Origin: Bacillota bacterium
GTDB lineage: Bacteria > Bacillota > Desulfotomaculia > Desulfotomaculales > Desulfallaceae
NCBI GenBank assembly: GCA_022360435.1
Contig: JAKSCU010000364.1
Span: 1-41,218 of the forward strand
Length of the DNA: 41,218 nucleotides
Direction of reading: 5' to 3'
Positions 18,336-35,188 of the stretch are shown piece by piece (the stretch's first letter is position 1; each line of letters begins with the position of its first letter). The notes under the pieces are model-generated. The model was given only the letters and a program-made list of their open reading frames with translations, ran no database searches and was not told the DNA's origin. The position numbers were made by a program, and so were the translations under genes.

Positions 18336-19261
18336 AAATCGGCATTATCGGCGCCGGCGCGATGGGTTCGCTTTTCGGGGCCCGCCTCGCCGACGGCGAC
18401 AACCAAGTCACCTTGATCGACGTTTGGCGCGAGCACGTGAGGAAAATTAATGCCGAAGGGCTGCGGTTGGTGGGAGAAAACGGCGAAAAAATTTATCATC
18501 TCCGGGCGGTGGAATCCCCCCGGTCCCTGGGCACCCAAGATTTGGTGATCATTTTTGTCAAATCATATCACACCACAGCCGCGCTAAAAAACGCCGCAAA
18601 TTTATTGGGCCCCAACACCGCCGTGCTCACCTTGCAAAACGGCCTGGGCAATGCCGAGCTCATATCGGAGGTGGCCGGCGGCGCCGCGGTTTATGCAGGC
18701 ACAACGTCACACGGCGCCCATGTGCTGGGACCGGCCCTGGTGCGGCACGCCGGGGAGGGCGAAACAGTCATCGGGCGTTTCGGAGGCCCTAACGACCGGC
18801 GGGCGGGCGAAATAGCCGCCGCACTCACCCGCTGCAGCTTGGTCACCAGGGTGACCGACAACATAGACGGCTTAATCTGGGACAAGCTGCTGGTCAACGT
18901 GGGCATCAACGCCTTGACGGCTATTTGCGCCATTCCCAACGGGGGTCTGGTGGATTTGAAAAGCGCCGGCCTGTTGATGGAAAAGCTGGTGGCCGAGGCC
19001 GAGGGCGTTGCCCGGGCCAAGGGGATAAAACTGCCCGGCGACAACCCCCGGGCCAAGGCGCGGGAAGTGGCGGCGGCAACCGGAGAAAACCGATCTTCCA
19101 TGCTGCAAGACATGGAAAACCGACGTCGGACCGAGATCGATTTTATAAACGGGGCCATAGTTAAGGAAGGCGCGAAAGTCAATGTCGCCACACCCTGCAA
19201 TGAAATGGTGGCCTTGTTAATCAAAACCCTGGAAGAAAAGAGGTCCAAGGGCATTGCTTAA
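18332..19261 (+). CDS. panE: 2-dehydropantoate 2-reductase family protein (PanE/ApbA)
   Basis: 309 aa. N-terminal Rossmann domain with GAGAMG (residues 7-12), then LQNGLGN with N103, the catalytic K185 in LIWDKLLVNVGINALTA, and E268 in the C-terminal RRTEIDFINGAIV. The enzyme family reduces ketopantoate to pantoate with NADPH; several members are broader 2-hydroxyacid dehydrogenases. It overlaps panB by 4 bp (GTGA) and the iclR gene by 8 bp, so the three are translated together. With panB it could act in ketopantoate formation or, run in reverse, in pantoate breakdown. Confidence 0.92.
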   Translation: MKIGIIGAGAMGSLFGARLADGDNQVTLIDVWREHVRKINAEGLRLVGENGEKIYHLRAVESPRSLGTQDLVIIFVKSYHTTAALKNAANLLGPNTAVLTLQNGLGNAELISEVAGGAAVYAGTTSHGAHVLGPALVRHAGEGETVIGRFGGPNDRRAGEIAAALTRCSLVTRVTDNIDGLIWDKLLVNVGINALTAICAIPNGGLVDLKSAGLLMEKLVAEAEGVARAKGIKLPGDNPRAKAREVAAATGENRSSMLQDMENRRRTEIDFINGAIVKEGAKVNVATPCNEMVALLIKTLEEKRSKGIA

Positions 19262-20000
19262 AGTGGCCAACAACACCCTGGAACTGTTGGAGTATATTTG
19301 TTCCAGCCGGAAAAAGGATTTCTCGTTGAGCGAGCTCAGCAGCGCCTTCCAGGTCAACAAATCCACCATGCACAGGATGTTGAGGGTGCTAACCGAACGC
19401 GGTTACCTGCGTCAAGAGCCCAAAACCGGCCGTTACCTGCTTAACTGGAAATTGCTTGAGCTGGGCGCCCAGGTTAACGCCAAGCTGGGGCTGCTGGAGA
19501 CGGTTTCACCATACATGGAGCAACTGGCCAGGGAAACAGGAGAAACTGTCAATCTGGCGGTATTGTACGATAAAAAGGTGGTTTACATTCATAAAGTGGA
19601 GAGTACCCACTTTTTAAGGACGGATTTAAGGGTGGGCATCACTGTTCCGGCATATTGCAGCGCCCTGGGCAAAGCCATTCTGGCGTGGCACACCGAGGAA
19701 CAGTTGGCCAAAATTTTGAGCGCCGAAAATCTTGTGCCTTTCACACCGCAGACCATAACCGATCCGGACCTTTTTAAGAAAGAATTAACCGCGGTTAAAA
19801 AAAGAGGGTATGCGGTGGATATAGAGGAATACATCCCGGGGATAATTTGTGTGGCCGCTCCCATTCTCAATAGGCAGGGGAAAGCAATTGCCGCCATCAG
19901 TATTGCCGGGCCGGGCTTAAGAATATCGGAAGAAAAAGTGGCGGCCGTGGGGGAACTGGTGCGCGTAAAAACCAAAGAAATTTCCAGCCGGTGCGGCTGA
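19254..20000 (+). CDS. IclR family transcriptional regulator
   Basis: 248 aa. N-terminal winged helix (FSLSELSSAFQVNKSTMHRMLRVLTERGYLRQEPKTGRYLL), then the IclR effector domain with VVYIHKVES, YCSALGKAILAW and GIICVAAPILN. TTG start at 19254, inside the end of panE. Regulators of this family usually bind small carboxylates or aromatic acids and control nearby catabolic genes. Likely targets are its own operon (palindrome at 17426-17442) and possibly the TRAP genes downstream, though no matching palindrome is visible before dctP. Confidence 0.93.
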   Translation: MLKVANNTLELLEYICSSRKKDFSLSELSSAFQVNKSTMHRMLRVLTERGYLRQEPKTGRYLLNWKLLELGAQVNAKLGLLETVSPYMEQLARETGETVNLAVLYDKKVVYIHKVESTHFLRTDLRVGITVPAYCSALGKAILAWHTEEQLAKILSAENLVPFTPQTITDPDLFKKELTAVKKRGYAVDIEEYIPGIICVAAPILNRQGKAIAAISIAGPGLRISEEKVAAVGELVRVKTKEISSRCG

Positions 20001-20010
20001 ACAATTCAAT

Positions 20011-20052
20011 AAAAAAAGCGCACTAATTCAGCTCCCTTGGCGTGCGCTTTTT
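20011..20052 (+). repeat. Dispersed two-hairpin repeat, truncated copy
   Basis: AAAAAAAGCGCAC (20011-20023) pairs with GTGCGCTTTTT (20042-20052) around the loop TAATTCAGCTCCCTTG. ACTACTTTTATCCTGGAATCC follows as in complete copies, but the second palindrome is missing. It sits 11 bp after the iclR stop and probably terminates the panB-panE-iclR operon. Confidence 0.7.
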
Positions 20053-20082
20053 ACTACTTTTATCCTGGAATCCGGCATAAAT

Positions 20083-20111
20083 GGGGACATTCCTCGAAGA
20101 GGTGTGTCCCC
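20083..20111. repeat. GGGGACA/TGTCCCC palindrome, copy 1
   Basis: GGGGACA at 20083-20089 and TGTCCCC at 20105-20111 are inverted around TTCCTCGAAGAGGTG, which itself contains CCTC/GAGG arms. It is preceded by CCGGCATAAA, as is the similar palindrome at 30796-30824. It resembles repeats associated with REP/RAYT elements. Confidence 0.55.
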
Positions 20112-20174
20112 CGACCCCTAATGGCCGTGGGTATACTTTTATAACAGCAAAATCAAAAGGAAGGTGAATTAGTT

Positions 20175-21200
20175 ATGCTTAAACGCCAAACTTACCGGGT
20201 CCTTTGTTTAATACTTTTCGTTACATTGGTCGCCGCCGGGTGCGGCGGCGGCGACGGCAATAATCAGGGCGGCCAGGATTCAGATAAACCCGTGCTGCTG
20301 CAAGCCGGGCATGCGGTGGCCGAAGCCCACCCCTACCACCTGGGATTGTTAAAGTTCAAGGAGATTGTCGAAACAAACACAGACGGGCAAGTGACAGTGG
20401 AGATTTTCCCCAATGGAACACTGGGTTCCGAGCGCGACATGGTTGAGGGCCTGCAAATGGGCAGCATCGACGTGTTGGTCACTTCAACGGGGCCGGTCAT
20501 CAACTTTATTCCCGAAATGGGCTTGGTGGATTTGCCGTTTCTTTTTAGCAGCTCGGAACATGCCTACCAGGTGCTGGACGGTGAAGTGGGCCGGGAGTTG
20601 CTGCAAAAGTTCGATGCCATTGGCATAAAAGGCCTGGCCTTTTGGGAAAACGGCTTTCGCCACCTGACCAACTCGGTGCGGCCGGTGACATCGGTGGAGG
20701 ATATCCAAGGGCTCAATATAAGGACCATGGAAAACGAAGTCCACCAGGCGGCGTTTAAGGTCCTGGGCGCAAGCCCCACCCCCATGGCCTGGGGAGAAGT
20801 ATTCACTTCACTGCAGCAGGGAACCATCGACGGCCAGGAAAACCCGGTGCCCATTATTTACACCATGAACATTTACGAAGTGCAGAAATACCTGGCGCTG
20901 ACCGGACACTTCTATTCCCCGGCCCTGTTGCTGTTCTCCCAAAAAGCCTTTGACGAGCTGACCCCCGGGCAGCAAGAGATATGCCGGGCCGCGGCGCTGG
21001 AAGCGGCGGCCTACGAGCGCGAGAAGATTAATGAGCAAACCGAAGAGCAACTGGCCCTGCTAGAAGAAAAAGGAATGGTAATAACCAAGCCGGACGTGCA
21101 GGCTCTGCGGGAAGCCACCGGTGCGGTTTACGAGCAATACCGGGACAAATTCGGCCCGGACAGAATTGAAAAAATACTGGCCGCCGATCCCAACAAGTAA
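20175..21200 (+). CDS. dctP: TRAP transporter substrate-binding lipoprotein (DctP family)
   Basis: 341 aa. Lipoprotein signal peptide with lipobox LVAAGC and a Gly/Asp/Asn-rich tether. The DctP fold follows: FPNGTLGSERDMVEGLQMGSIDV, LVDLPFLF, and the conserved Arg in LNIRTMENEVH that usually holds the substrate carboxylate, then TSLQQGTIDGQENPVPIIY. It delivers an organic acid to the DctQM membrane unit, driven by an ion gradient. ATG at 20175 after AAGGAAGGTGA. The position behind panB-panE-iclR suggests a hydroxy- or keto-acid substrate, which is inference. Confidence 0.94.
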   Translation: MLKRQTYRVLCLILFVTLVAAGCGGGDGNNQGGQDSDKPVLLQAGHAVAEAHPYHLGLLKFKEIVETNTDGQVTVEIFPNGTLGSERDMVEGLQMGSIDVLVTSTGPVINFIPEMGLVDLPFLFSSSEHAYQVLDGEVGRELLQKFDAIGIKGLAFWENGFRHLTNSVRPVTSVEDIQGLNIRTMENEVHQAAFKVLGASPTPMAWGEVFTSLQQGTIDGQENPVPIIYTMNIYEVQKYLALTGHFYSPALLLFSQKAFDELTPGQQEICRAAALEAAAYEREKINEQTEEQLALLEEKGMVITKPDVQALREATGAVYEQYRDKFGPDRIEKILAADPNK

Positions 21201-21228
21201 CCCCTGCAAACAGTTGTTTGTTTGAAAA

Positions 21229-21264
21229 GGGCGGCGCTCAATTAAGCGCGCCGCCCGGGTTTTT
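21229..21264 (+). terminator. Hairpin between dctP and dctQ
   Basis: GGGCGGCGC at 21229-21237 is the exact complement of GCGCCGCCC at 21248-21256, followed by GGGTTTTT. A strong stem with a T-run inside the operon would lower expression of the membrane genes relative to the binding protein, or protect the dctP message 3' end. Confidence 0.65.
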
Positions 21265-21291
21265 CAAGCAAGCAGGCAAGGAGGAAGACAA

Positions 21292-21756
21292 GTGCAGCTT
21301 CTCGACCGGTTTTGCAAGTCGGTTATATTCACGCTCTTTTTTTTAATGGTGGTAACCACGTTTTTGCAAATTATTTTTCGCTATGTATTTTCCGCCCCCC
21401 TAACCTGGTCGGAAGAACTATCCAGGTATTGCCTGGTGTGGCTGACCTTTGTCGGCGCCGCCGTGGGTCTAAGGGCGAAAATTCACGTGGCGGTGGAGGC
21501 CGTCACCAGGCTTTTACCCGCGGGGCTTAAACTGCTGATAATACGGTTTAACTATTTAATAATCACTGTTTTTGCCGCCGTCCTGGTAAAACACGGGTTT
21601 GAGTTGAGCCTTTTCAACATGAATCAGCTTTCCCCGGCCATGCATATTCCCATCGGGCTTGTCTATGCCGCCGTGCCGGTGGGAGGATTGCTCATTTTCA
21701 TATTCGCCGTGGAAAAACTTGTTTCACCCGGGGAAGAGGGAGGGGCAACCAATTGA
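21292..21756 (+). CDS. dctQ: TRAP transporter small permease (DctQ family)
   Basis: 154 aa with four membrane segments (about 10-30, 45-65, 82-102, 122-145). The family signature is VTTFLQIIFRYVFSAPLTWSEELSRYCLVWLTFVGAAVGLR. GTG start at 21292 with AAGGAGGAAG upstream. It ends in a 4-bp overlap (TTGA) with dctM, so the two are translationally coupled. Confidence 0.94.
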   Translation: MQLLDRFCKSVIFTLFFLMVVTTFLQIIFRYVFSAPLTWSEELSRYCLVWLTFVGAAVGLRAKIHVAVEAVTRLLPAGLKLLIIRFNYLIITVFAAVLVKHGFELSLFNMNQLSPAMHIPIGLVYAAVPVGGLLIFIFAVEKLVSPGEEGGATN

Positions 21757-23015
21757 CGGCGGTAGTTCTCATAGCCACCTTGTTCGGGTTACTGCTGATA
21801 GGCGCGCCCATCGCCTTTTCCCTGGGCGTGAGCTCCCTGGTCGCGCTGGTTACTACAGGCGACCTGCCCCTTTCCATAATACCGCAGCGCCTGTTTACTT
21901 CCACCGATTCTTTTGTGCTGTTGGCGGTGCCGTTTTTCGTGCTGGCGGGGGAACTAATGCAAAACGGGGGCATATCCCGCCGGCTGGTCAACTTCGCCGG
22001 CAACCTGCTGGGCTGGATCAGCGGGGGACTGGCCCTGGTAAGCATAGCCTCGTCGGCGTTCTTCGCCGCCATATCGGGCTCCTCGGCGGCAACCACCGCC
22101 GCCATCGGCAGCATTATGTACCCGGAAATGCTGAAAAGGCACTACAAACCTGATTTCGCGGCCGCCGTGCAGGCGGTGGGCGGCACCCTGGGAGTGATCA
22201 TTCCGCCCAGCATCCCCTTGATTATTTACGGCGTAATAACGGGCACTTCGGTGGGCGACCTGTTCCTGGCCGGTATCGTGCCCGGTATTTTGGGCGCTCT
22301 GGCCTACATGGCCGTGGCCTGGAACATATCCCGAAAACAAGGGCACCAGCTGGAGGCGCGCGGCAGCTTCACACAAACCTGGCAATCATTCCTGGACGCC
22401 TTTTGGGGATTGCTGATGCCGGTTATAATACTGGGGGGCATTTACGGCGGCGTTTTCACCCCCACCGAGGCCGCGGTGGTAGCCGTGGTTTACGCCACTT
22501 TGGTGGGCGCTTTAATTTACAAGGAACTGAATTTTAAGAATTTTTACCAAATATTTGTCAAGGCCGGCTTAACCAGCGCCATGATTATGCTGCTCATTGC
22601 CGCCGCCTCGGTTTTTACCTGGATTATGACCATAAACAGTATCCCCCAGGTCATTGGCCATACCGTCCTTTCCCTGACCGAAAACAAGATTGTTCTTTTA
22701 TTGCTGGTCAATTTAGTATTCCTGGTGGTGGGCATGTTCCTGGACACAGTGGCCATCATGTTATTGTTGACTCCCATTTTCTTCCCCATCGCCACTCAAC
22801 TGGGCATGGACCCGGTACATTTCGGCATTATGGCCGTATTCAACCTGGCCGTGGGCCAAATGACCCCGCCATTTGGGGTCTGCCTGTTTGTTTCCTCCGG
22901 CATCACCAGGGTGCGGGTGGAAAAGTTGTTTCGCAGCGTGCTGCCCTTTTTACTGGCGGCCCTATTGCTAATACTACTGGTGACTTACGTGCCGGCGCTA
23001 AGCTTGAGGTTTTAG
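21753..23015 (+). CDS. dctM: TRAP transporter large permease (DctM family)
   Basis: 420 aa with about 12 membrane segments. Family motifs include GAPIAFSLGVSSLVAL, FVLLAVPFFVLAGELMQNGG, SSAFFAAISGSSAATTAAIGS, TLGVIIPPSIPLIIYG and FTPTEAAVVAV near the middle, and GMFLDTVAIMLLLTPIFFPI in the C-terminal half. It carries the ion-coupled transport step. TTG start at 21753 overlapping the dctQ stop. Confidence 0.95.
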   Translation: MTAVVLIATLFGLLLIGAPIAFSLGVSSLVALVTTGDLPLSIIPQRLFTSTDSFVLLAVPFFVLAGELMQNGGISRRLVNFAGNLLGWISGGLALVSIASSAFFAAISGSSAATTAAIGSIMYPEMLKRHYKPDFAAAVQAVGGTLGVIIPPSIPLIIYGVITGTSVGDLFLAGIVPGILGALAYMAVAWNISRKQGHQLEARGSFTQTWQSFLDAFWGLLMPVIILGGIYGGVFTPTEAAVVAVVYATLVGALIYKELNFKNFYQIFVKAGLTSAMIMLLIAAASVFTWIMTINSIPQVIGHTVLSLTENKIVLLLLVNLVFLVVGMFLDTVAIMLLLTPIFFPIATQLGMDPVHFGIMAVFNLAVGQMTPPFGVCLFVSSGITRVRVEKLFRSVLPFLLAALLLILLVTYVPALSLRF

Positions 23016-23455: not shown

Positions 23456-24370
23456 TTAAGTCATAACTCGGCTCAGAACAAAGGATACGGTAACGAGACT
23501 CAGCGCGGTGGTGGCAAAAGTTACCGTGGAAACCAGCTCGGGCCTGTTATCAAATTGCACCGCCAAAAGCGTGGTGGTGGCTGCTGTCGGAGTGGCCGCG
23601 CACACCAACAATACTTTGCCGGCCAGCGTTTCCAAGGGAAAAAACAACTTTAACACCAACAAGCCGGCAAGGGGGTAAACAGCCAGCTTTAAAAAAGTGG
23701 CCAGCGAAACAAAACCCCAGGATTTATGCAGTTTAATCCGGGAAAGGCTTAGGCCCAAAAGCAGCAGCAGGGTGGGTATAGCCGCGCCTCCCAAAAGTGT
23801 TATGGCCCGGTCCAGAACCAAAGGCGGCTGGACTTCCAGCAAACGGAGCACCAGCCCCAACACAACTGCTATAAACCCGGGAATACGTAAAATATTCAGT
23901 AGAGCCTCCTTGATGCCCTGCTGGGCCGACGAGGCAAAATAAACACCGGCTGAATTCATGAGAATTACCTGGGTGGCCATAAATACCACACCAACGGTCA
24001 CACCGGGCTCTCCGAAAGAAAAAAGCAGTATGGGGAGGCCATAATTGCCGGAATTGGGAAAGCCGCTGGATAAAATCAAAGCATTGGCGGTTTTTTCATC
24101 AAACTTCATAAACCTGGCAATAACCTTCAGCAACGCAATAAAAACAATAAATAAAACTACGGCAAACCAGAATACTTTAAGCAATATAAAAGAATCCAGG
24201 GTTGATTTAACCATGGCATTAAAATAAAGGGCAGGATTAAATACATACAGGCAGACTGTTGCCAGAGAGCTGCCATTAAGCTTTAACACCCGGCCCAATA
24301 TAAATCCCACCGCCATTACGGCAAACACCGGCAAAACCACGTTAATCAGCTTTATAATTAGCATGCGCAT
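23456..24370 (-). CDS. AEC-family transporter (auxin efflux carrier-like)
   Basis: 304 aa with about ten membrane segments. The two halves show the fold of the bile acid/arsenite/riboflavin superfamily: an N-terminal PVFAVMAVGFILGR, a mid motif SSGFPNSGNYGLPI that is typical of the family, and a C-terminal AATPTAATTTLLA. AEC members export small carboxylates such as malate. ATG at 24370 after GGGAG. It lies downstream of adh in the same direction but is separated by a 240-bp gap holding a palindromic repeat, so it may have its own promoter. Confidence 0.9.
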   Translation of the reverse strand: MRMLIIKLINVVLPVFAVMAVGFILGRVLKLNGSSLATVCLYVFNPALYFNAMVKSTLDSFILLKVFWFAVVLFIVFIALLKVIARFMKFDEKTANALILSSGFPNSGNYGLPILLFSFGEPGVTVGVVFMATQVILMNSAGVYFASSAQQGIKEALLNILRIPGFIAVVLGLVLRLLEVQPPLVLDRAITLLGGAAIPTLLLLLGLSLSRIKLHKSWGFVSLATFLKLAVYPLAGLLVLKLFFPLETLAGKVLLVCAATPTAATTTLLAVQFDNRPELVSTVTFATTALSLVTVSFVLSRVMT

Positions 24371-24493
24371 TCATCTCCCGCAAACCAACGGCGAGAGCCC
24401 GCGTGCGGTTGGACTCCCGTCTGTGAACATACCCTCAAGTTTCCTTGATGTATACCGGGTTTGCTAAACCGCCGTCATTTAAACAGCCGTTAT

Positions 24494-24575
24494 AAAAAAA
24501 CGCGCTCATTCGGTTTTCTCCGGCGCGCGCTTTTTGATACTTTTCTCCTCGAATCCGGCCATTAAATATGGCCGG
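24494..24575 (+). repeat. Dispersed two-hairpin repeat, copy 2
   Basis: A-run plus CGCGC (24494-24505) pairs with GCGCGCTTTTT (about 24525-24535) around the loop TCATTCGGTTTTCTCCG, followed by GATACTTTTCTCCTC. The second palindrome is CCGGCC-N9-GGCCGG at 24555-24575, then AGGTA. It lies between two minus-strand genes, adh and the AEC transporter, in the opposite orientation, so its stem must act in reverse if it terminates. Confidence 0.75.
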
Positions 24576-24607: not shown

Positions 24608-25594
24608 TTACGGACTGAGCACAACTTTGATAGCCGCGTCGTCCTTGTCGACCAGTTCAAAGGCTTCCTTGAGCTGGTGGAGTTTAAAATGGTTGGTTAT
24701 TAACGGGCGTATGTCCACCAGACCCTGCAGTACGGGACGCAAAGCCTCCGGAGCCCATATGTAACGCTGCTGGAACGTATGGTGCACCAGGCAAGTGTTA
24801 ATGAACTCAATACCGTCGTCATGCCACTTACTGATATTAAGCGTGACCGGGGTTGTAATCCAGCTGTACCAAACAAATTTTCCATTGCGCCTGACCATGT
24901 CGGTACACATGTTAATTGACTGTTCGGTACCGGCCGCCTCTATAACCACGTCCGCCCCTTTGCCGCTGGTTAAACTCGCCACAACCTCAACGGCGTTCTC
25001 CCGGGCGGCGTTTACGACCACGTCGGCGCCCAGTTTTTCGGCCAGCTTCAGTTTACCTTCCAACACATCCACCACCACCACCTTTTCAGCCCCTTTTTTC
25101 TTGACGCACTGGGCGATAACCTGGCCGGCAAAACCGGCGCCCATCACCACCACCGTGTCTCCCAACTGCACTCCCGAGTTCAAGCCGGAGTACATGGCGC
25201 AGGCTATGGGTTCGCCCAGCGAGGCCAAATCCATGTCCATCCCCTCGGGCACGGGCTGCAATTCCCAAACTTTGGCTTTGAAAAACCGGGCCAAATTATT
25301 ATTCCAACCAAAGGCCATTACCTTGTCGCCCGGTTTATATTCCCGCACCCTGGCGCCCACTTCCACCACGGTGCCGCCGCTTTCATGCCCCAGGTAAAAT
25401 GGAAATCCGGGTTCCTGCCGAAACTCGGACGTTTTGGCGGGCAGCAGACCCCGGTAAAAATTTTTGTCGGAACCACAAACGCCCATCAGGTGGTTTTGCA
25501 CAATCACCTCGTCGTCGCCACAGGCCAACCGGCGCTCCACAAGGTCAATGTGATAAGGACTCTGAAGCACCGCCGCTAAGGTTGCAACAGCCAT
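24608..25594 (-). CDS. Zinc-dependent alcohol dehydrogenase (MDR family) without structural zinc loop
   Basis: 328 aa. Catalytic zinc ligands C40 (GVCGSD), H70/E71 (LGHESGG) and E128 (SLGEP) are present. The usual four-Cys structural zinc lobe between about 90 and 115 is absent; that stretch reads GDKVMAFGWNNNLARFFKAKVWE. Rossmann motif GAGFAGQ in VVVMGAGFAGQVIAQ. NAD(P)-dependent oxidation of a hydroxyl group is expected, substrate unknown. ATG at 25594 with GGGGAGGGAG upstream, only 1 bp after the glycerate kinase gene, so the two are co-translated. Confidence 0.88.
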   Translation of the reverse strand: MAVATLAAVLQSPYHIDLVERRLACGDDEVIVQNHLMGVCGSDKNFYRGLLPAKTSEFRQEPGFPFYLGHESGGTVVEVGARVREYKPGDKVMAFGWNNNLARFFKAKVWELQPVPEGMDMDLASLGEPIACAMYSGLNSGVQLGDTVVVMGAGFAGQVIAQCVKKKGAEKVVVVDVLEGKLKLAEKLGADVVVNAARENAVEVVASLTSGKGADVVIEAAGTEQSINMCTDMVRRNGKFVWYSWITTPVTLNISKWHDDGIEFINTCLVHHTFQQRYIWAPEALRPVLQGLVDIRPLITNHFKLHQLKEAFELVDKDDAAIKVVLSP

Positions 25595-25595
25595 T

Positions 25596-26741
25596 TTACT
25601 CCCTCCCCAAATTGATGCTTATTTTTAAAATCCTAAAACTCCGCTCTACGGCGTCGGCCGTCAGAGCCCGCGCTTTTTGCATGGCTTCGGCGTCGCTGAT
25701 AGGCCCCGGCGCTATGGTGATTATGGAATCGATACCCATATCGTAAAGTTTTTCCGCTCCGGGACCGACGCTCCCCGCCACCGCCAGCACCGGCAGTCCG
25801 CGGCGGCGCGCCCGGCCGGCCACGCCGGTCGGCACTTTGCCGTAGGCCGATTGAGCATCGACACGGCCTTCTCCGGTAATCACCAGGTCGACTTGGGCCA
25901 TAAGCCGGTCAATTTTAATGGCGTCCAGCACCAGTTCAACGCCCGGCGCCAGCTCCGCGCCGGTGAAAGCCACCAACCCGGCGCCCAATCCTCCCGCCGC
26001 CCCGCTGCCGGGAATCCCCGCCACGTCAATCCCCAGTTGTTTTTTAATTTCTGCGCCGAAATGCTCCAGCCGGCGGTCAAGAATATCTACCATTTCCGGC
26101 GTGGCGCCCTTTTGCGGGCCGTATACCGCAGCTGCGCCCGCCGGCCCGCACAGCGGGTTTCGCACGTCACAGGCAACCTTGATATTAACTTCTTTCAGCC
26201 TGGAATCCAGATCCGAGACGTCAATTAGACGCAATTTGTCCAAACCGGCGCCGCCAAATCCCAGTTCTTTCCCGGCGCCGTCCAAAAGGCGCGCACCCAG
26301 GGCCTGCGCCATACCGGCCCCGCCATCGTTGGTGGCGCTGCCCCCAATGCCTATGATGATGGCGGTTGCGCCGCTGTCAAGGGCGGCCTTGATTAGTTCC
26401 CCCGTGCCATAAGTGGTGGTCCACCTGGGATCGCGCCTGTTGGCCGGAACCAGGGTCAGGCCCGAAGCCGAGGCCATCTCCAGCACAGCGGTGCCGTCCG
26501 GCAGCATGCCGAACTCGGCCGGCACGGGGGAACCCAGCGGCCCCGTCACTTGGACCGGCACCATCTTGCCGCCGGTGGCGGACACCATAGCTCTTGCCGT
26601 CCCCTCACCACCGTCGCCAACCGGCACCGCCGTTATTTGAGCGTCGGGATAAACCCTCCTGATCCCGGCGGCGACCGCTTCGGCCGCCGCCATGCTGCTA
26701 AGGCTGCCTTTGAAAGAATCCGTAGCAATCAATATTTTCAT
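25596..26741 (-). CDS. Glycerate kinase (GarK/GlxK type, glycerate 2-kinase)
   Basis: 381 aa from ATG at 26741 (MKILIATDSFKGSLSS, the standard family N-terminus); upstream extension overlaps the response regulator gene. Motifs include PVGDGGEGT, GIGGSATNDGGAGMAQALG, GPQKGATPE, GSGAAGGLGAGL and the C-terminal VITGEGRVDAQSAYGKVP. It phosphorylates D-glycerate to 2-phosphoglycerate, feeding lower glycolysis. It sits between the two-component genes and an alcohol dehydrogenase in one minus-strand operon, so the sensed compound may be glycerate or something broken down to it. Confidence 0.95.
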   Translation of the reverse strand: MKILIATDSFKGSLSSMAAAEAVAAGIRRVYPDAQITAVPVGDGGEGTARAMVSATGGKMVPVQVTGPLGSPVPAEFGMLPDGTAVLEMASASGLTLVPANRRDPRWTTTYGTGELIKAALDSGATAIIIGIGGSATNDGGAGMAQALGARLLDGAGKELGFGGAGLDKLRLIDVSDLDSRLKEVNIKVACDVRNPLCGPAGAAAVYGPQKGATPEMVDILDRRLEHFGAEIKKQLGIDVAGIPGSGAAGGLGAGLVAFTGAELAPGVELVLDAIKIDRLMAQVDLVITGEGRVDAQSAYGKVPTGVAGRARRRGLPVLAVAGSVGPGAEKLYDMGIDSIITIAPGPISDAEAMQKARALTADAVERSFRILKISINLGRE

Positions 26742-26766
26742 GTCGCACCACCAATTTGCTGGGAAA

Positions 26767-27459
26767 TTAATCCGGGCTGATAAAATATTTTTTACTGGGC
26801 CTGCCCACAACCCCGTAATCCAATTCCACCGCCACTTTGTTGCTGGCCAACAGGTACTCCAGGTAACGCCAAACCGTGATTTTGGACATGGACAACCTGT
26901 CGGCTATCTCCTGGCAGGACAAGGGGCTGTTTTGTTTGAGCAAAAAGCCCACAATATGATTCAGAGTCAAATAGTGCACGCCTTTGGGCAATTGGTCATG
27001 AGTTTTACATCGGTTGGGAGCCCGTAAACCATTGTTCATTTTGTCAATTTCTTCCTGGGTGAATTCTTGTTTCCTACTCAATATCGACCGTAATTTTAAA
27101 TAATTGCGCAGAGACTTTTCCAGCCGCTCAAGGTTAAAAGGTTTAATAATATAATCGATGGCGCCGTAACGCAATGTCTCGTAAATGGTGTTTGCATCCT
27201 TGGCGGCGGTAATCAATATTACGTCGCAGGGCAGCCCCTCCTCCCTGATGGATTGCATAAGTTTCAAACCGCTGTTGCCGGGCAGGTAAATATCCAGCAG
27301 CACCAGATCGGGCCGCAGTCTTTTAATTTCCGCCAACCCGGATTTTTCATTGTAGCTGATGCCAACCAACTTAAAAGGAGGTATCTTTTCCGTCATACGC
27401 CTGTTGATGTCCGCTACCATCGGGTCGTCTTCCACGATGTACACTCGAACACTTCGCAC
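26767..27459 (-). CDS. Response regulator, CitB/DcuR family
   Basis: 230 aa. Receiver domain with D11/D12, phospho-acceptor D56 (LVLLDIYLPGNSG) and K106 (YIIKPF). The C-terminal winged helix-turn-helix (LTLNHIVGFLLKQNSPLSCQEIADRLSMSKITVWRYLEYLL) is typical of CitB/DcuR regulators. GTG at 27459 with AAGGGGG 8-9 nt upstream. The gene follows its kinase with a 13-bp gap and precedes glycerate kinase by 25 bp. It probably activates its own operon and the divergent Fe-S/tct genes. Confidence 0.95.
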   Translation of the reverse strand: MRSVRVYIVEDDPMVADINRRMTEKIPPFKLVGISYNEKSGLAEIKRLRPDLVLLDIYLPGNSGLKLMQSIREEGLPCDVILITAAKDANTIYETLRYGAIDYIIKPFNLERLEKSLRNYLKLRSILSRKQEFTQEEIDKMNNGLRAPNRCKTHDQLPKGVHYLTLNHIVGFLLKQNSPLSCQEIADRLSMSKITVWRYLEYLLASNKVAVELDYGVVGRPSKKYFISPD

Positions 27460-27472
27460 CGGCTTTTCCCCC

Positions 27473-29059
27473 TTACTGGCTGTTCAAAAGGTTTGGAATC
27501 CAGATGGTGAAAGTGGTTCCCCCCGAGCCTGTTTCCACACTGATAGTCCCCTGGCTCAACTTGATCCTTTTGTAAAGATTGTTTAAACCGTACCCCATTC
27601 CGGTTTGCTTAGTGGTAAAACCAGGGTCGAAAATCCTGTCTTTAATATGCTCATCAATCCCCTGCCCGTAATCTTTAACCCAAATGTTGATCCAGCGCTG
27701 GTCTTGATAAATGGCAACCTCGACTTGCTTGCGCCCCGGCGGCATGTCTTTGACGGCTTGCAAAGCGTTGTCCACCAGGTTGCCCAGCACAACGGTAAAA
27801 AAGTTCTCTTCAAAATGGTCGGGCAGGTAGCGCAGCCGGCTGTTTCCATCCACGTGAAAGCCGATGTGCATTTCCTTGGCCTCACTGGCCTTACCCACCA
27901 AAAGACCCACTACGGCGGGGTTCTTGATGTTATCTATGATGAAACTGATTAAAGCCTGGTCCCGGTTGGTGAGGTTGGTGATAAATTTTTGCGCCTCGTC
28001 ATAATCACCGAGCTGAATCAGGCCTGAAACAATATGCATCTGGTTCATAAACTCGTGGGTTTTGGCCCGCAGCGCGTTGACCACTTTTTTGACCCCTGTT
28101 AATTCCTGGGCTAAACGGTTAACTTCCGTCAGGTCCCGAAAAGTGGAAATAGCGCCAACAACTTCCCCGGCCACTATCATGGGCACCCGGTTGGTCAAAA
28201 CAGTGGTGTTGTTCATGATCATCGGCTGGTCATACTCGGCCTGGCGCGTTTCCATAACCAGCGGCAGCCTTGAGTTGGGCAGCACATCCGTAATGTTGCG
28301 GCCGATGATTACAGTTTCCGGACTAAACAGCTTTTGAGCCGTTTGATTGATCACGGTGACCCTGTTGTTTACGTCAATGGCGATGATGCCCTCGCGCACC
28401 GACTGCAGCATTGATTCTCTTTCTTCAAGCAATGTCGCTATCTCCCGCGGTTCCATGCCAAACATGGAACGCTTGATGCTGAACGCCAGCAACCAGGAAA
28501 AGATAACCATGGAAACAAAGCCGAAGGGAATGACGATATAAAAAATGCCAAACACCTTGGACATAATTACTTTGATGTTGGGTTCGAAAAAGCCCACCGC
28601 CACGGCGCCCACTTGTCTCTGGCGCAGGTCGTAAATGGGCACGAAGCCTCGAATGGAGGGACCGGATATGCCCACCGCCCTGGAAGTGTAGGTATGGCCC
28701 GCCAGGGCCGGCCCCTCATCGTCACCGGTGAAATGTTTGCCGATAAGTTCGGTATTGGGATGGGAATAACGAACACCCCCCATGTTCATATACACCACAA
28801 AAGCGGCATCGGTTTTACGCACTATTTCGGAAGCAATCACCTGTAATTTGTCGGCCGGGTTATCGTCGGCATACGCCCGCCTGGCGTCGAGGCGGGCCGA
28901 GGCCAGATGGGCGATATCCTTGGCATGGTTTTCCATTTGCCCTTGCATGCTTTCCCGAATGGAGTAATAAAAGATAAGCATGCTTACGTTAAGGGTTAGC
29001 ATGCCGATGGTAAGGGTGAAAATAAAAACCTTAACCTGCAGGGAAATGTTTTTCCACAA
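27473..29059 (-). CDS. Membrane sensor histidine kinase, CitA/DcuS family
   Basis: 528 aa. TM1 about 11-33, an outer single-Cache-type sensor domain 34-170 (VYMNMGGVRYSHPNTELIGKHF...GPSIRGFVPIYD), TM2 about 171-193, a PAS domain 215-315, and a kinase core with phospho-acceptor H335 in RAKTHEFMNQMHIVSGLIQLG and ATP-binding DNALQA, DYGQGI, GMGYGLNNLYK. The family senses C4-dicarboxylates, citrate or similar carboxylates outside the cell. TTG start at 29059. The divergent Fe-S/tct cluster begins 223 bp away, so the shared region is a probable target. Confidence 0.95.
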   Translation of the reverse strand: MWKNISLQVKVFIFTLTIGMLTLNVSMLIFYYSIRESMQGQMENHAKDIAHLASARLDARRAYADDNPADKLQVIASEIVRKTDAAFVVYMNMGGVRYSHPNTELIGKHFTGDDEGPALAGHTYTSRAVGISGPSIRGFVPIYDLRQRQVGAVAVGFFEPNIKVIMSKVFGIFYIVIPFGFVSMVIFSWLLAFSIKRSMFGMEPREIATLLEERESMLQSVREGIIAIDVNNRVTVINQTAQKLFSPETVIIGRNITDVLPNSRLPLVMETRQAEYDQPMIMNNTTVLTNRVPMIVAGEVVGAISTFRDLTEVNRLAQELTGVKKVVNALRAKTHEFMNQMHIVSGLIQLGDYDEAQKFITNLTNRDQALISFIIDNIKNPAVVGLLVGKASEAKEMHIGFHVDGNSRLRYLPDHFEENFFTVVLGNLVDNALQAVKDMPPGRKQVEVAIYQDQRWINIWVKDYGQGIDEHIKDRIFDPGFTTKQTGMGYGLNNLYKRIKLSQGTISVETGSGGTTFTIWIPNLLNSQ

Positions 29060-29160
29060 GTCACCGGCGCCCCTTTCGATATTTCAGCTTTATGTTTAGC
29101 ATAACAAGTTTTTATTACGGCGACAACGAATTGGGCCATGTAATATATGAAATAAATTAT

Positions 29161-29185
29161 AATTTTTTAAATTTATCAAAAAATT
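29161..29185. promoter_or_regulatory. AT-rich inverted repeat in the divergent kinase/Fe-S intergenic region
   Basis: AATTTTTT at 29161-29168 is inverted as AAAAAATT at 29178-29185 around AAATTTATC. It lies in a 223-bp AT-rich region between a CitA/DcuS-type kinase gene and the Fe-S protein gene. CitB/DcuR-type regulators bind AT-rich sites, so it is a candidate binding site. Confidence 0.35.
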
Positions 29186-29282
29186 AAAGAATTAATACAG
29201 GTGGCTTTTTGCGGCGGTAAGAAACATTTAGGCCATAGAGGTGGCAACACCAAAGCACAATAAAGCCAAAGGAGGGAAAAAA

Positions 29283-30008
29283 ATGATTATCGATCCCGAG
29301 ACATGTATGGGTTGCCAGGCCTGTCAGATTTACTGCCCCATGGGCGCCATCGCGTACCTGCCGGACAGCGGAATCTGCCGGGTTAACCTGGACGAATGCG
29401 TGGAGTGCGGCATTTGCCTGAGGCCCGACCCCTGTCCCACCGACGCCCTGCAACAACAGGAACTGGACGAGATACGCGAACTGCGCCGGGCCTTTTCCAA
29501 CCCGCTGGTTCCCCACAAGAGCACCTCGGTTCCCGGCCGGGGCACCGAGGAAATAAAAACTAACGAAGTTACGGGGCGCTTTAAGCGGGGACACGCGGGT
29601 GTCGCCGTGGAATTGGGCCGGCCCGGCACGGGCACCAGATTTAAAGACGTGGAAACGGTGGCCATGGCCATCGCCAAATGCGGTGTCAGCTTTGAGCCCC
29701 ATAATCCCGTCACCGCCCTTATGACCGACGTCAAGACCGGTAAAATGAGGGATGACGTTTTAAACGAAAAAGTGCTTTCGGCTATTGTTGAAATGGTTGT
29801 AACGGCGGACAATCTGGCCGGCGTGCTCAAAGCCATAAAAAATGTGGCCGGCCAACTGGATACCGTTTTCAGCCTGGACCTGGCTTGCCGGGTCAACCCC
29901 GACAACTCCGCCCCGGTGGAAGAAATCGCCCGCAGCGTTGGGTTTATGCCTTCCATTAACGGCAAAACCAACGTCGGGTTGGGCAGACCGCTAGCAAAGG
30001 AGGATTAA
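29283..30008 (+). CDS. Two-[4Fe-4S] ferredoxin domain fused to an unassigned C-terminal domain
   Basis: 241 aa from ATG at 29283 with a perfect AAAGGAGGG. Residues 1-55 hold two cluster motifs: C8-x2-C11-x2-C14-x3-CP18 and C39-x2-C42-x2-C45-x5-CP51. Residues about 85-241 (RFKRGHAGVAVELGRPGTGTRFKDVETVAMAIAKCGVSFEP, later MPSINGKTNVGLGRPLAKED) match no family I can name. No membrane segment or signal, so it is cytoplasmic. The stop codon is followed after 1 bp by the next gene. Electron transfer or an Fe-S enzyme subunit is the natural guess. Confidence 0.75.
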   Translation: MIIDPETCMGCQACQIYCPMGAIAYLPDSGICRVNLDECVECGICLRPDPCPTDALQQQELDEIRELRRAFSNPLVPHKSTSVPGRGTEEIKTNEVTGRFKRGHAGVAVELGRPGTGTRFKDVETVAMAIAKCGVSFEPHNPVTALMTDVKTGKMRDDVLNEKVLSAIVEMVVTADNLAGVLKAIKNVAGQLDTVFSLDLACRVNPDNSAPVEEIARSVGFMPSINGKTNVGLGRPLAKED

Positions 30009-30009
30009 C

Positions 30010-30645
30010 ATGACCCACACCCTGCACAGGCACGGCAGCGCCGAGAATTTGCAAAACGACTACATTGTGTTTGCCATTGCCGCTCAAACGGTGAACGCCA
30101 AGGGAAAAGCGCGCGTTTTCGCAGAGTTTTTTAAAATAATAGAAAAATACAACTATGCTTTTTGTGGCGACATGAAGACGGGTAACGAATACGCCGTGGG
30201 CAGAGAGGCCATCCGCCAGGGATTTAGGGACAATTCCATTGTGCACGCGGTTTTCACCGACAAAGAAGAAGTCGCCCGGGTACTCAAGGAACTGGCCGAA
30301 GCCGACCTGGGCCTCTCCATCGTGGTGTCCGGCATTCTGGAACACGCCGACGCCTGTTGCCGCAAAGCGGGTATACAAAGACACACCATTGAGTGGTCGT
30401 TGGGCATTCACGGCAACACCCAAAAGCTTCCCCAGGATAAAGAGACGCTGGAAATCAGCACCATGTGCGGCCACGGCATGGTCGCTTTTAGCCTGATTAA
30501 CCACATGGTTAAGGAAATCAGGGCGGGGCGCGTAACCACGGCGGAAGCCGCCAGGGAGTTGGCGGCCCAATGTCACTGCGGAGTGGTTAACCCGGAACGG
30601 ACCTCACAATTGCTTCAGGCTATGGTCACAGAATACAACAACTAA
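30010..30645 (+). CDS. Cys/His-rich protein of unknown function, partner of the Fe-S protein
   Basis: 211 aa, ATG at 30010 with AAAGGAGGATT. No domain is recognised. The Cys and His are clustered in motifs that look like ligand sites: HADACC (H112, C116, C117), LGIHGNT (H134), ISTMCGHGM (C153, H155) and CHCGVVNPERT (C188, C190). Cytoplasmic, mixed alpha/beta. With the preceding ferredoxin-domain protein it could form a two-subunit metalloenzyme, for example a dehydratase or oxidoreductase acting on the acid imported by TctCBA. That is inference. Its TAA stop lies at the very edge of a repeat copy. Confidence 0.7.
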   Translation: MTHTLHRHGSAENLQNDYIVFAIAAQTVNAKGKARVFAEFFKIIEKYNYAFCGDMKTGNEYAVGREAIRQGFRDNSIVHAVFTDKEEVARVLKELAEADLGLSIVVSGILEHADACCRKAGIQRHTIEWSLGIHGNTQKLPQDKETLEISTMCGHGMVAFSLINHMVKEIRAGRVTTAEAARELAAQCHCGVVNPERTSQLLQAMVTEYNN

Positions 30646-30900: not shown

Positions 30901-31902
30901 ATGTTTAAAAAACACCTTTCTTTGGTATTAGCGGCTCTGGCCTTGTTGGCGGTTGGCTTGCTGGTCGCCGGGTGCGGAGGGGAAAAGGCCCCGGACAACG
31001 ACGCGGCCGCCGGCTACCCCGAACGACCGGTGGAAGTCATTGTGGGTTGGGGCGCCGGCGGCGGCACCGATACCTTTGCCCGGGCCATTACCAAACCGGC
31101 CTCGGAAATTTTGGGGCAGCCCATGCCGGTTAAAAATATGTCCGGCGCGTCCGGCGCCATCGCGGGAGATTATATCACCCAGCAACCGGCCGACGGTTAT
31201 ACCATGTGGGCCATGGGCTCCAACTACGCGGTAAACGTCGCCCTTAACCGGACACCCCACGACCTGAGCGCGTATACCCCCATCGCGCGGATACAACACG
31301 ATACCGCCATGCTCCAAGTGGCCGAAAACGGTGCATTTCAGACAATCGACGAGCTGGTGGAATATGCCAAAGCTAATCCCGGTAAAGTCAAAATGGGGGG
31401 CACCGGCGCCGCCAGCTTCGATGAGGTGGTAGTGGCCCTGTGGGAAGAAGCGGCGGGTGTGGATGTAAATTACGTGCCTTACGAAAAAGGCGGCGCCATG
31501 CACTCTGCTCTAATGGGCGGTCACGTCGACGTCATGTTTGAAGAACTTGGCTCCACGGCCAGCCTGGTGGAAGAGGGTTCGATCAAACCAATCCTGGCTT
31601 TTACCAACAAAAAGATCGAAAGTATGCCCGACCTGCCCATCTGTGCTGACAAGGGATGGGATGTGACCCTGGGCAACTGGCGCGGAATCATGGTCAAAAA
31701 AGGCACTCCGGAACCCGTGATCCAACAACTTCAGGATGTTCTCGAGCAGGCCTATAACGACTCGGGATACAAGGAGTTTGAAAAACAGGGGTACTTGAAC
31801 CTGCGGGCGGGCTATCAAAACAGCGATGATTTCGCCAAGCATATCCAGGAAAATATCGAGCAATACCGGAAAGCGCTGGTCAACCTGGGCTACGTTAAAT
31901 AG
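30901..31902 (+). CDS. tctC: Tripartite tricarboxylate transporter substrate-binding lipoprotein (TctC/Bug)
   Basis: 333 aa. Lipoprotein signal with lipobox LVAGC. The Bug-family fold starts at YPERPVEVIVGWGAGGGTDTFAR, with GASGAIAGDYI, MGGTGAASFDEVV and GGHVDVMFEELGS typical of TctC proteins. It captures a carboxylate outside the membrane for TctAB. ATG at 30901 with AAGGAGG. The ligand is not predictable; the neighbouring CitA/DcuS-type sensor may recognise the same compound. Confidence 0.94.
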   Translation: MFKKHLSLVLAALALLAVGLLVAGCGGEKAPDNDAAAGYPERPVEVIVGWGAGGGTDTFARAITKPASEILGQPMPVKNMSGASGAIAGDYITQQPADGYTMWAMGSNYAVNVALNRTPHDLSAYTPIARIQHDTAMLQVAENGAFQTIDELVEYAKANPGKVKMGGTGAASFDEVVVALWEEAAGVDVNYVPYEKGGAMHSALMGGHVDVMFEELGSTASLVEEGSIKPILAFTNKKIESMPDLPICADKGWDVTLGNWRGIMVKKGTPEPVIQQLQDVLEQAYNDSGYKEFEKQGYLNLRAGYQNSDDFAKHIQENIEQYRKALVNLGYVK

Positions 31903-32165: not shown

Positions 32166-32648
32166 ATGCTTGCCGAACTTGGACTGGGTATTTTTATCTT
32201 AGCCTTTTCAGGGATCATGTTTTACCAAACCACCCAGTTGGACTTTAACAGCAAAGTGGCCAGCATCGGGCCTGATTACTGGCCTCAAATCATTCTTGGC
32301 GGCATGTTGGCTTTGTCGGCGCTGTTGATTGTGGACACCGTCAGGCGTAAGGGGATTTTAGCGGGCGGCAAGCCCGCAGGGCGCCCCCCAAAAGCCCAAA
32401 ACCTCTGGTTCACACTGGCCTTGATGCTTATGTACACATATGCCATGCAATATTTGGGCTTTGTACTGGCCACGCTTTTGTTTTTACTGGCTGCAATGTG
32501 GATGCTGGAATTAAGGAAACCTAAAACCCTCGCGGCACTGGCCCTGGGCGTCACCACCGCGCTGGTGGTGCTGTTCCCCATTCTGATGATGATCCCACTG
32601 CCGCGTGGCACCGGATTATTTAGAACCATCAGCCTGCTGTTTTATTGA
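32166..32648 (+). CDS. tctB: Tripartite tricarboxylate transporter small subunit (TctB)
   Basis: 160 aa with four membrane segments, the family layout: LGLGIFILAFSGIMFYQT, then IGPDYWPQIILGGMLALSALLIV, a basic loop, and two C-terminal segments. ATG at 32166 after AGGGGGTG. It is followed 18 bp later by tctA. It is separated from tctC by a repeat, so expression of the binding protein and membrane subunits may differ. Confidence 0.93.
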   Translation: MLAELGLGIFILAFSGIMFYQTTQLDFNSKVASIGPDYWPQIILGGMLALSALLIVDTVRRKGILAGGKPAGRPPKAQNLWFTLALMLMYTYAMQYLGFVLATLLFLLAAMWMLELRKPKTLAALALGVTTALVVLFPILMMIPLPRGTGLFRTISLLFY

Positions 32649-32666: not shown

Positions 32667-34157
32667 ATGTCCGACCTATTATACGCGGTAAACGCCATTG
32701 CTCAGCCGATGAATTTTTTGATCCTGGTGGCCGGAGTGACGCTGGGCCTGCTTAGCGGCGCAACCCCCGGCGTCAGCGGCACCATGATGGTGGTTTTGTT
32801 GATTCCGTTGACCTACTCCCTTGAACCGGACGCGGCTTTCCTGCTGCTTTGTTCCGTTTATTGCTCGGCGGTTTTCTCCGGGTCCATCAGCGCCATATTG
32901 TTTCGCACTCCCGGCGCGCCGGAAGCCGTGGCCACCTCTTTGGACGGCTATCCCATGGCCCAGGGGGGACAAGCCCCCCTGGCCCTGGGTATATCGGTAT
33001 TCAGCTCGGCCACCGGCGGCCTGGTGGGAACACTATTGCTGATGGCCATTGCCCCGCAGTTGGCCAAAGTGGCTCTAAAATTCGGCCCGCCGGAATACTT
33101 CGCCTTGGCCGTGCTGGGCTTGAGCGTAATAACCGTAATGGGAGCCAACAACTTAATCAAATCTTTCCTGGCCGCCGGCTTCGGCTTGTTTTTAGCCACC
33201 GTGGGCATAGACGCCATGACGGGCGTAGCCCGGTTTACTTTTGGCGTCACGGGGCTGATGGGCGGTATTGATTTCATCCCGGTCCTGATTGGCTTATTTG
33301 CCGTATCCGAGGTGTTGCGCCGTTTTATGGGCGATTTGACCGTGCGGGAAAAAATGGCCCGCGTCAGCTCCAGGCTGCCGGATTTAAAAATGATGCGTAC
33401 GCTTGCCGGCACCATCGCCAGGTCCTCCCTTATCGGCACCGCCATAGGCATACTGCCGGGTATCGGGGCCACCACGGCCTCCATAGTCAGTTACAGCGAG
33501 GCCATGCGCTGGTCCAAAACGCCCGAAAAATTCGGCACGGGACACTCCGAAGGCATTGCCGCTCCCGAATCAGCCAATAACGCCGCCGCCAACGGAGCCA
33601 TGGTGCCGCTGTTAGCTCTGGGCATACCGGGCAGCGCCACCACCGCGGTTATGCTCGGAGCGTTCATCCTGCACGGTGTCAAACCGGGACCCCTGATGTT
33701 TACGGAACAGTCGCATCTGGTACACACCATTTTTGCCGGGTTGTTTTTATGCAACTTTCTTATCTTGATTATATCCAAGCCTTTTATCAGCGCCTTTGCC
33801 AATATTATTAGAATTCCCTACTATTTCTTGGGGCCGGTGATTTTGCTGCTTTGCATCATAGGTTCCTTTGCCATCCGCAACAATGTGCTGGACATCTGGC
33901 TAACCATGCTTTTTGGTTTTGTGGGTTATGTAATGGAAAAACACCAATTCCCGCTGGCTCCGGTTATCCTGGGCTTGGTGTTGGGTGGACTGGCCGAGCA
34001 GGAGTTAAGGCGCTCGCTGATAGTTTCCGGCGGCGATTGGGGAGTATTTTTCCAAAGCCCCATTTCAGCCGTTTTACTGCTAGCCGCAGCTGTTTCCGTA
34101 GTTTTATCCTTAGTTAGTTTGCTGCGGAAAAAGAAACAAACCGCGGCGGACGCCTAA
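32667..34157 (+). CDS. tctA: Tripartite tricarboxylate transporter large subunit (TctA)
   Basis: 496 aa with about 12 membrane segments. Family motifs are [20 protein letters not shown] near the N-terminus, the duplicated counterpart [20 protein letters not shown] in the middle, and [17 protein letters not shown]. It forms the transport channel, ion-coupled. ATG at 32667 with GGAAAGGGGG. ilvC follows 32 bp downstream in the same direction, which points to one transcript. Confidence 0.95.
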
Positions 34158-34189: not shown

Positions 34190-35188
34190 ATGGCCAAAGT
34201 GTTTTATGACCGGGATGCCGACTTAAACTTGTTAAAAGAAAAAAAAATCGCGGTGCTGGGTTACGGCAGTCAGGGGCATGCCCAGGCATTAAACCTGAAG
34301 GACAGCGGGCTGGATGTTCTGGTGGGGCTGCGCCCGGACAGTCCCAGCCGGAAAAAGGCGGCGGAAGCCGGCTTGGAATCGCTACCAATACCTGAAGCTT
34401 GCGCGGCGGCCAACATTATTCAAGTGTTGCTACCCGACGAGTTGCAGGCCCAGGTGTACTCGGAGCATATAGCCCCCCACCTGGCCGCGGGTAAAGTGCT
34501 GATGTTTTCGCACGGTTTCAATATTCACTTCCACCAAATCGTGCCGCCCGCCCATATAGACGTGCTGATGGTGGCCCCCAAAAGTCCCGGTCACCTGGTG
34601 CGCAGAATGTATACCAATGGAATGGGTGTCCCCGCGCTGCTGGCGGTGCACCAGGATTTCACCGGCCAAGCCAGAGACTTGGGGCTGGCCTACGCCAAGG
34701 GCATAGGCTGCACCCAGGCGGGAGTTTTCGAAACCACTTTCAGGGAGGAAACTGAAACCGACCTGTTCGGGGAGCAGGCGGTGTTGTGCGGCGGCCTGAC
34801 CGAGTTGATTAAGGCCGGATTCGACACCCTGCTGGAAGCCGGGTACGCGCCGGAGATGGCTTATTTCGAATGCCTGCACGAAATAAAACTAATCATCGAT
34901 TTGATTTACGAGGGCGGGCTTAAGGCCATGCGCCACTCGGTAAGCAATACCTGCGAATATGGCGACTATACCCGCGGGCCCCGTATCGTCACCGGCGAGA
35001 CAAGGCTGGAGATGAAAAGGATCTTGCAGGAAATCCAGGCCGGCCGTTTCGCCAGGGAATGGCTGCTGGAAAATAAAGCCAACCGCCCGGTATTCAACGC
35101 CATTAAAAAAAGGGAAAGCGAGCTGTTGGTTGAAACTGTGGGTGAGGAAATCCGCAGCATGATGCCGTGGTTAACTAATAAAACTTGA
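34190..35188 (+). CDS. ilvC: Ketol-acid reductoisomerase
   Basis: 332 aa, the class I length. Rossmann motif [20 protein letters not shown] with the cofactor loop [14 protein letters not shown]108 in FSHGF, and all four metal ligands D191, E195 (ETDLFGEQ), E227 and E231 (FECLHEIK). The knotted C-terminal domain includes [12 protein letters not shown]. The enzyme converts acetolactate to dihydroxyisovalerate in valine synthesis and in some bacteria also reduces ketopantoate. ATG at 34190 with GAGGAG. No ilvB, ilvD or leu genes are nearby; instead it follows tctCBA, an unusual location. Confidence 0.95.

Follow-up and report, generated by a model that had tools for sequence, protein, structure and literature searches.

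A carboxylate-sensor operon with a glycerate kinase and a loop-less zinc dehydrogenase, divergent from a ferredoxin-protein and tripartite transporter operon in a Bacillota genome

The stretch of DNA analyzed here (the window, 41,218 nucleotides) belongs to a draft genome in 626 contigs with an estimated contamination of 6.9%. Its central part carries two divergent operons, with the following features:

23456-24370, minus strand: AEC-type carrier family transporter (PF03547)
24490-24542, minus strand: intrinsic terminator (fold -17.6 kcal/mol, z = -2.98, then a T run)
24608-25594, minus strand: MDR dehydrogenase (PF08240 and PF00107; catalytic zinc ligands, no structural-zinc loop)
25596-26741, minus strand: class II glycerate kinase (PF02595, TIGR00045; ATG start)
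26767-27459, minus strand: DcuR/DpiA-type response regulator (receiver and HTH_11; Pfam, NCBIfam)
27473-29059, minus strand: DcuS/CitA-type sensor histidine kinase (TTG start; Pfam sCache_3_2, PAS, SPOB_a, HATPase_c)
29060-29282, no strand: divergent control region (223 bp, 35% GC)
29149-29157, plus strand: GAAATAAAT, candidate regulator site (GAAATDAAH motif)
29283-30008, plus strand: ferredoxin-domain protein "Fd" (8 invariant Cys, 2[4Fe-4S]; C-terminal domain without a Pfam match)
30010-30645, plus strand: partner protein "X2" (no Pfam or NCBIfam match; invariant C153, H155, C188 and C190)
30901-31902, plus strand: TctC, TTT solute-binding protein (PF03401)
32166-32648, plus strand: TctB (PF07331)
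32667-34157, plus strand: TctA (PF01970, 506.4 bits)
34190-35188, plus strand: second ketol-acid reductoisomerase (KARI, IlvC paralogue; 450.5 bits against the ilvC equivalog cut-off of 226.15)

The kinase, regulator, glycerate kinase and dehydrogenase genes together occupy 29059-24608 of the minus strand. The gaps of 13, 25 and 1 bp given in the preliminary description are exact (27460-27472, 26742-26766 and 25595), and together with the gene coordinates they bear out the tight operon packing described there. The listed TTG start of the glycerate kinase at 26810 overlaps the regulator gene, and in this longer ORF PF02595 matches only from residue 26 on. The operon ends at the terminator at 24490-24542, which parts it from the AEC gene. 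Elsewhere in the window, PanB, PanE, an IclR regulator and a TRAP transporter are encoded in one cluster at 17469-23015, and a sigma-54 activator (AAA and Fis HTH) lies at 35939-36982, downstream of the TTT/KARI operon. No Rfam elements were found within 16000-38000 of the window.

All four domains expected of a CitA/DcuS-type carboxylate sensor were found in the kinase, in agreement with its first assignment. When the kinase is aligned with DcuS and DpiB of E. coli, R97, H100 and R137 correspond to DcuS R107, H110 and R147, and F139 takes the position of DcuS F149; the pocket lysine of CitA (K152) is not kept. The roles of these pocket residues are taken from the literature (PMC8639471). Since the Arg-His-Arg set is kept and F139 occupies the position of the CitA lysine, the sensor pocket is DcuS-like. 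The kinase scores below the cut-off of the NCBIfam DcuS/MalK subfamily NF008298 (488.2 vs 520 bits), and its relatives in the PDB are 8bgb, 3by8 and 1p0z. The known ligands of DcuS are C4-dicarboxylates and citrate. By homology, the phospho-acceptors are His335 in the kinase and D56 in the regulator. Sensor homologues occur in 23 of the 399 phylum genomes sampled (threshold 1e-110). Many remoter homologues (~38-40% identity) adjoin TRAP DctP genes rather than TTT genes, as does a second sensor copy in the source genome.

The proposal of a divergent control region between the two operons is supported. An AT-rich inverted repeat had been put forward as the shared control site. The repeat is present, with arms TAATTTTTT and AAAAAATTA at 29160-29168 and 29178-29186, but as a control site it is marginal against chance: a perfect 9-bp arm is equalled in 8 of 200 dinucleotide shuffles, which makes it weak evidence. 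The longest arms in four other divergent gaps are 7 bp (three gaps) and 8 bp (one), none of them exceptional, and the repeat is not conserved. We therefore rejected the repeat as a shared operator. The motif GAAATDAAH, chosen post hoc after looking at the gaps, has 7 matches in 4 of 5 divergent gaps, with 0.7 expected and 0/1000 in shuffles; the kinases of the other loci checked, which mostly lack the module, do not have it upstream. Although selected in this way, GAAATAAAT is the better candidate site.

The glycerate kinase is clearly assigned to its family, with 497.5 bits for PF02595 (cut-off 23.3) and 481.8 bits for TIGR00045 (168.45). It misses the GlxK and GarK equivalog cut-offs (404.1 and 385 against 686 and 625 bits) and is present as a single copy in the draft genome. 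Class II glycerate kinases make 2-phosphoglycerate. The family is widespread in the phylum (210/399 genomes). A glycerate 2-kinase route that starts from glyoxylate has been described in an anaerobe (PMC8092247).

The dehydrogenase was compared with its homologues, the comparison set consisting of 18 proteins and their loci (the window protein among them) and 399 phylum genomes. As first noted for the window protein, the structural-zinc loop is missing; the alignment shows it absent from the 17 homologues as well, while E. coli Tdh, IdnD and Ahr do carry it (CxxCxxC). The catalytic zinc ligands C40, H70, E71 and E128 are retained across the 18 proteins, with E128 replaced by Asp in L041. Asp176, which follows the Rossmann fold, suggests the use of NAD+. 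W257-H258, H271 and W280 are invariant among the 18, and R256 is conserved in the homologues but is Lys in the window protein; these residues suggest a predicted pocket for an acidic substrate. The 18 proteins form one supported group in the tree, apart from Tdh, IdnD, Ahr and the second MDR protein of L036, with the deeper joins unsure because the outgroup branches are long. The window protein reaches no named NCBIfam subfamily or equivalog cut-off. The distribution of the enzyme is patchy: 4 of 100 relatives have it, as do 15 of 399 phylum genomes, with identities that often fall at 63-77%, and it was not found in any of the 15 other genus and family members searched.

The divergent operon starts with Fd, whose ATG at 29283 has AAAGGAGGG just before it. 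The genes for Fd and X2 adjoin each other in each of the 20 loci of the first alignment and also in the further loci inspected. There the companions are TTT, TRAP or GntP-like transporters, hydroxy-acid enzymes and a CooS-like protein. A few loci also have dihydropyrimidinase-like and energy-coupling transport genes; neighbor names outside the library scans were read by eye from sequence. Genomes have up to seven X2 copies, and the pair occurs in Bacillota as well as in bins that are labelled Chloroflexi and Bathyarchaeota. The predicted structures of X2 and Fd are confident (pLDDT 88 and 90). Foldseek comparison of both models with the PDB gave no match at E <= 0.001, and profile searches gave no solved relative for X2 or for the C-terminal domain of Fd, the matches being confined to the ferredoxin part. 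Homology between X2 and the Fd C-terminal domain, considered on account of a shared D-[MV]-K-T-G motif, found no support in hhalign (probability 0.5%).

In four regions (L028:1422-6225, L037:10528-15086, L003:7810-12841 and L006:7929-12820) Fd/X2 is flanked on one side by a short CooS-like protein and its CooF-like partner, and on the other by an NADH/FAD oxidoreductase-like gene. The translation of a long ORF at L092:18803-19366 is a repeated unit with varied spacers, which has the look of a translated CRISPR array.

After Fd and X2 comes a complete TTT transporter set, and then the KARI paralogue. Its metal ligands D191, E195, E227, E231 and S252 are invariant in the alignment. The other KARI copy (G000:C198), 68% identical to the paralogue, adjoins an acetolactate-synthase-like gene and leuCD. 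KARI can reduce hydroxypyruvate. The paralogue raises the question of whether the module degrades a branched hydroxy acid of the pantoate or dihydroxyisovalerate type by means of KARI and the PanB/PanE genes at 17469-19261. A KARI occurs together with IlvD in L013, a PanB homologue lies within the module of L040, the window has its PanB/PanE genes with IclR and TRAP genes, and KARI enzymes are promiscuous reductases (PMC4353338). However, a linked KARI is seen in just 2 of the 18 loci, and a branched acid would give no role to the TTT transporter or the glycerate kinase. PanB in the window is the only copy in the genome and panC is on another contig; thus synthesis and the breakdown of pantoate are both possible, and the gene may just serve pantothenate synthesis. 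We consider a branched substrate very improbable.

Of the 18 loci, 12 have X2 near the dehydrogenase gene (one of them truncated by the end of its contig) and 10 have TTT genes there. Glycerate kinase is nearby in 7 loci, 5 of which have it next to the dehydrogenase or no more than one gene away, and the kinase and regulator pair is nearby in 6. All of these are lower bounds because some contigs are short. The glycerate kinase and two-component counts far exceed what roughly estimated background rates would give by chance (7e-13 and 1e-5). At the genome level, co-occurrence of the dehydrogenase and X2 is 12/15 against 27/399 (Fisher p ~1.4e-13). The steadiest companions of the dehydrogenase are thus the Fd/X2 pair and the TTT transporter, not glycerate kinase, which several module loci lack.

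The locus L011, from another family of the same order, repeats the layout: AEC, dehydrogenase, glycerate kinase, regulator and kinase on one side, and Fd, X2, TctC, TctB and TctA on the other. Most of its proteins are 64-82% identical to those in the window (TctB 54%). The AEC gene lies immediately 3' of the dehydrogenase, with a gap of 40 bp. L011 has extra sigma-54/PrpR-type genes, a sigma-54 activator lies inside its sensor operon, and its short contig has no KARI gene. In other loci the neighbors encode enzymes of hydroxy acids: tartronate-semialdehyde-reductase-like, aldehyde:ferredoxin oxidoreductase-like, IlvD and PdxA-type dehydrogenase proteins. Because the neighboring enzymes are not the same from locus to locus, more than one substrate may be involved, and not a single pathway. 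The dehydrogenase and Fd/X2 have a patchy distribution over the families, as would be expected of a catabolic module that spreads horizontally. A literature search for a module of glycerate kinase, TTT and two-component genes returned nothing relevant, and the scatter of related gene sets among distantly related bacteria suggests a hydroxy-acid utilization pathway not yet described.

The preliminary description had the sensor mainly driving glycerate kinase, with glycerate or a near compound as the substrate. On such an account the system would sense glycerate or a near precursor, and the dehydrogenase would interconvert glycerate and hydroxypyruvate or tartronate semialdehyde. Glycerate kinase is indeed adjacent or nearly adjacent to the dehydrogenase in the window, L011, L012, L030 and L031, and L012 and L013 have a tartronate-semialdehyde-reductase-like gene. 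Against this, three of the six loci with sensor and dehydrogenase (L028, L029 and L038) have no glycerate kinase near the dehydrogenase, yet all three keep TTT, and the sensor pocket matches that of DcuS, with its C4-dicarboxylate and citrate ligands. Neither the emphasis on glycerate kinase nor the substrate is supported as stated, and we regard glycerate sensing as rather unlikely. As the main target of the regulation, the divergent operon (Fd, X2, TctCBA, KARI), which the preliminary description leaves out, is the better candidate; it is conserved with the sensor in L011.

Citrate-type two-component systems occur beside TTT operons, and CitAB controls tctCBA in Corynebacterium glutamicum (PMC5812351). 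With this precedent and a DcuS-type pocket, the window could hold an ordinary system of the DcuSR/CitAB kind that serves the uptake of citrate or C4-dicarboxylates by TTT, the glycerate kinase and dehydrogenase being merely co-transcribed. Genes for citrate lyase, fumarase or malic enzyme were not noted near the operons, however, and the dehydrogenase tracks Fd/X2 and TTT across families, which makes this account quite unlikely.

On balance, the locus is probably half of a divergent, carboxylate-induced module for the uptake and breakdown of a hydroxy acid, ending at 2-phosphoglycerate. An external small carboxylate, probably of the C4 type or a hydroxy-carboxylate, would bind the DcuS-like Cache domain. 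The kinase would then phosphorylate the DcuR-like regulator, which would act within 29060-29282 on both operons, turning on the TTT importer, the Fd/X2 pair and the KARI paralogue to the right and its own operon with glycerate kinase and dehydrogenase to the left. Redox enzymes, among them the NAD-type zinc dehydrogenase, would convert the imported acid into glycerate, which glycerate kinase would pass as 2-phosphoglycerate to lower glycolysis. Of this account, the gene content and layout, the pocket and zinc residues and the conservation of the module are directly seen in the sequences; we infer the induction, the direction of the reactions and the entry at 2-phosphoglycerate.

The arrangement of sensor and transporter is ordinary. 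The Fd/X2 pair and the dehydrogenase branch are unusual, and the real novelty is Fd/X2. On a tentative reading, Fd/X2 may be a new iron-sulfur enzyme of two subunits, or else a redox partner, that performs a common step of anaerobic hydroxy-acid breakdown; the sensor operon would control one version of the pathway, and the loop-less dehydrogenase would be a dedicated partner. The conserved module brings two nameless protein families and a dehydrogenase branch, patchy across Bacillota. Identification of the inducer would expose a route of organic-acid breakdown in anaerobes, and the built-in sensor offers a direct handle.

The two-component system has the domain order, Arg-His-Arg pocket and DpiA/DcuR-like regulator in common with DcuS/DcuR and CitA/CitB, again with carboxylate transport genes nearby. 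The kinase is 31% identical to E. coli DcuS and 27% to DpiB, and unlike those systems it shares an operon with a glycerate kinase and an MDR dehydrogenase. As with TctCBA and CitAB of Corynebacterium glutamicum and with TctD/BctDE, where the two-component system adjoins or controls TTT, the window has the two side by side; unlike there, its TTT genes are led by Fd/X2 and followed by the KARI paralogue. The GarK/GlxK glycerate 2-kinase operons share the kinase family, and their tartronate-semialdehyde-reductase-like companion genes recur in some module loci. In contrast to them, no glyoxylate carboligase or galactarate genes were noted in the window, and its glycerate kinase adjoins a two-component system. 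The short CooS-like protein of the Fd/X2 loci resembles mini-CooS (PMC8776680) in size. The sorbitol, threonine and L-idonate zinc MDR dehydrogenases have catalytic zinc ligands, a Rossmann domain and PF08240 with PF00107 in common with the window enzyme, which shares only ~26% identity with Tdh and IdnD of E. coli and, unlike them, lacks the structural-zinc loop and has W257-H258, H271 and W280.
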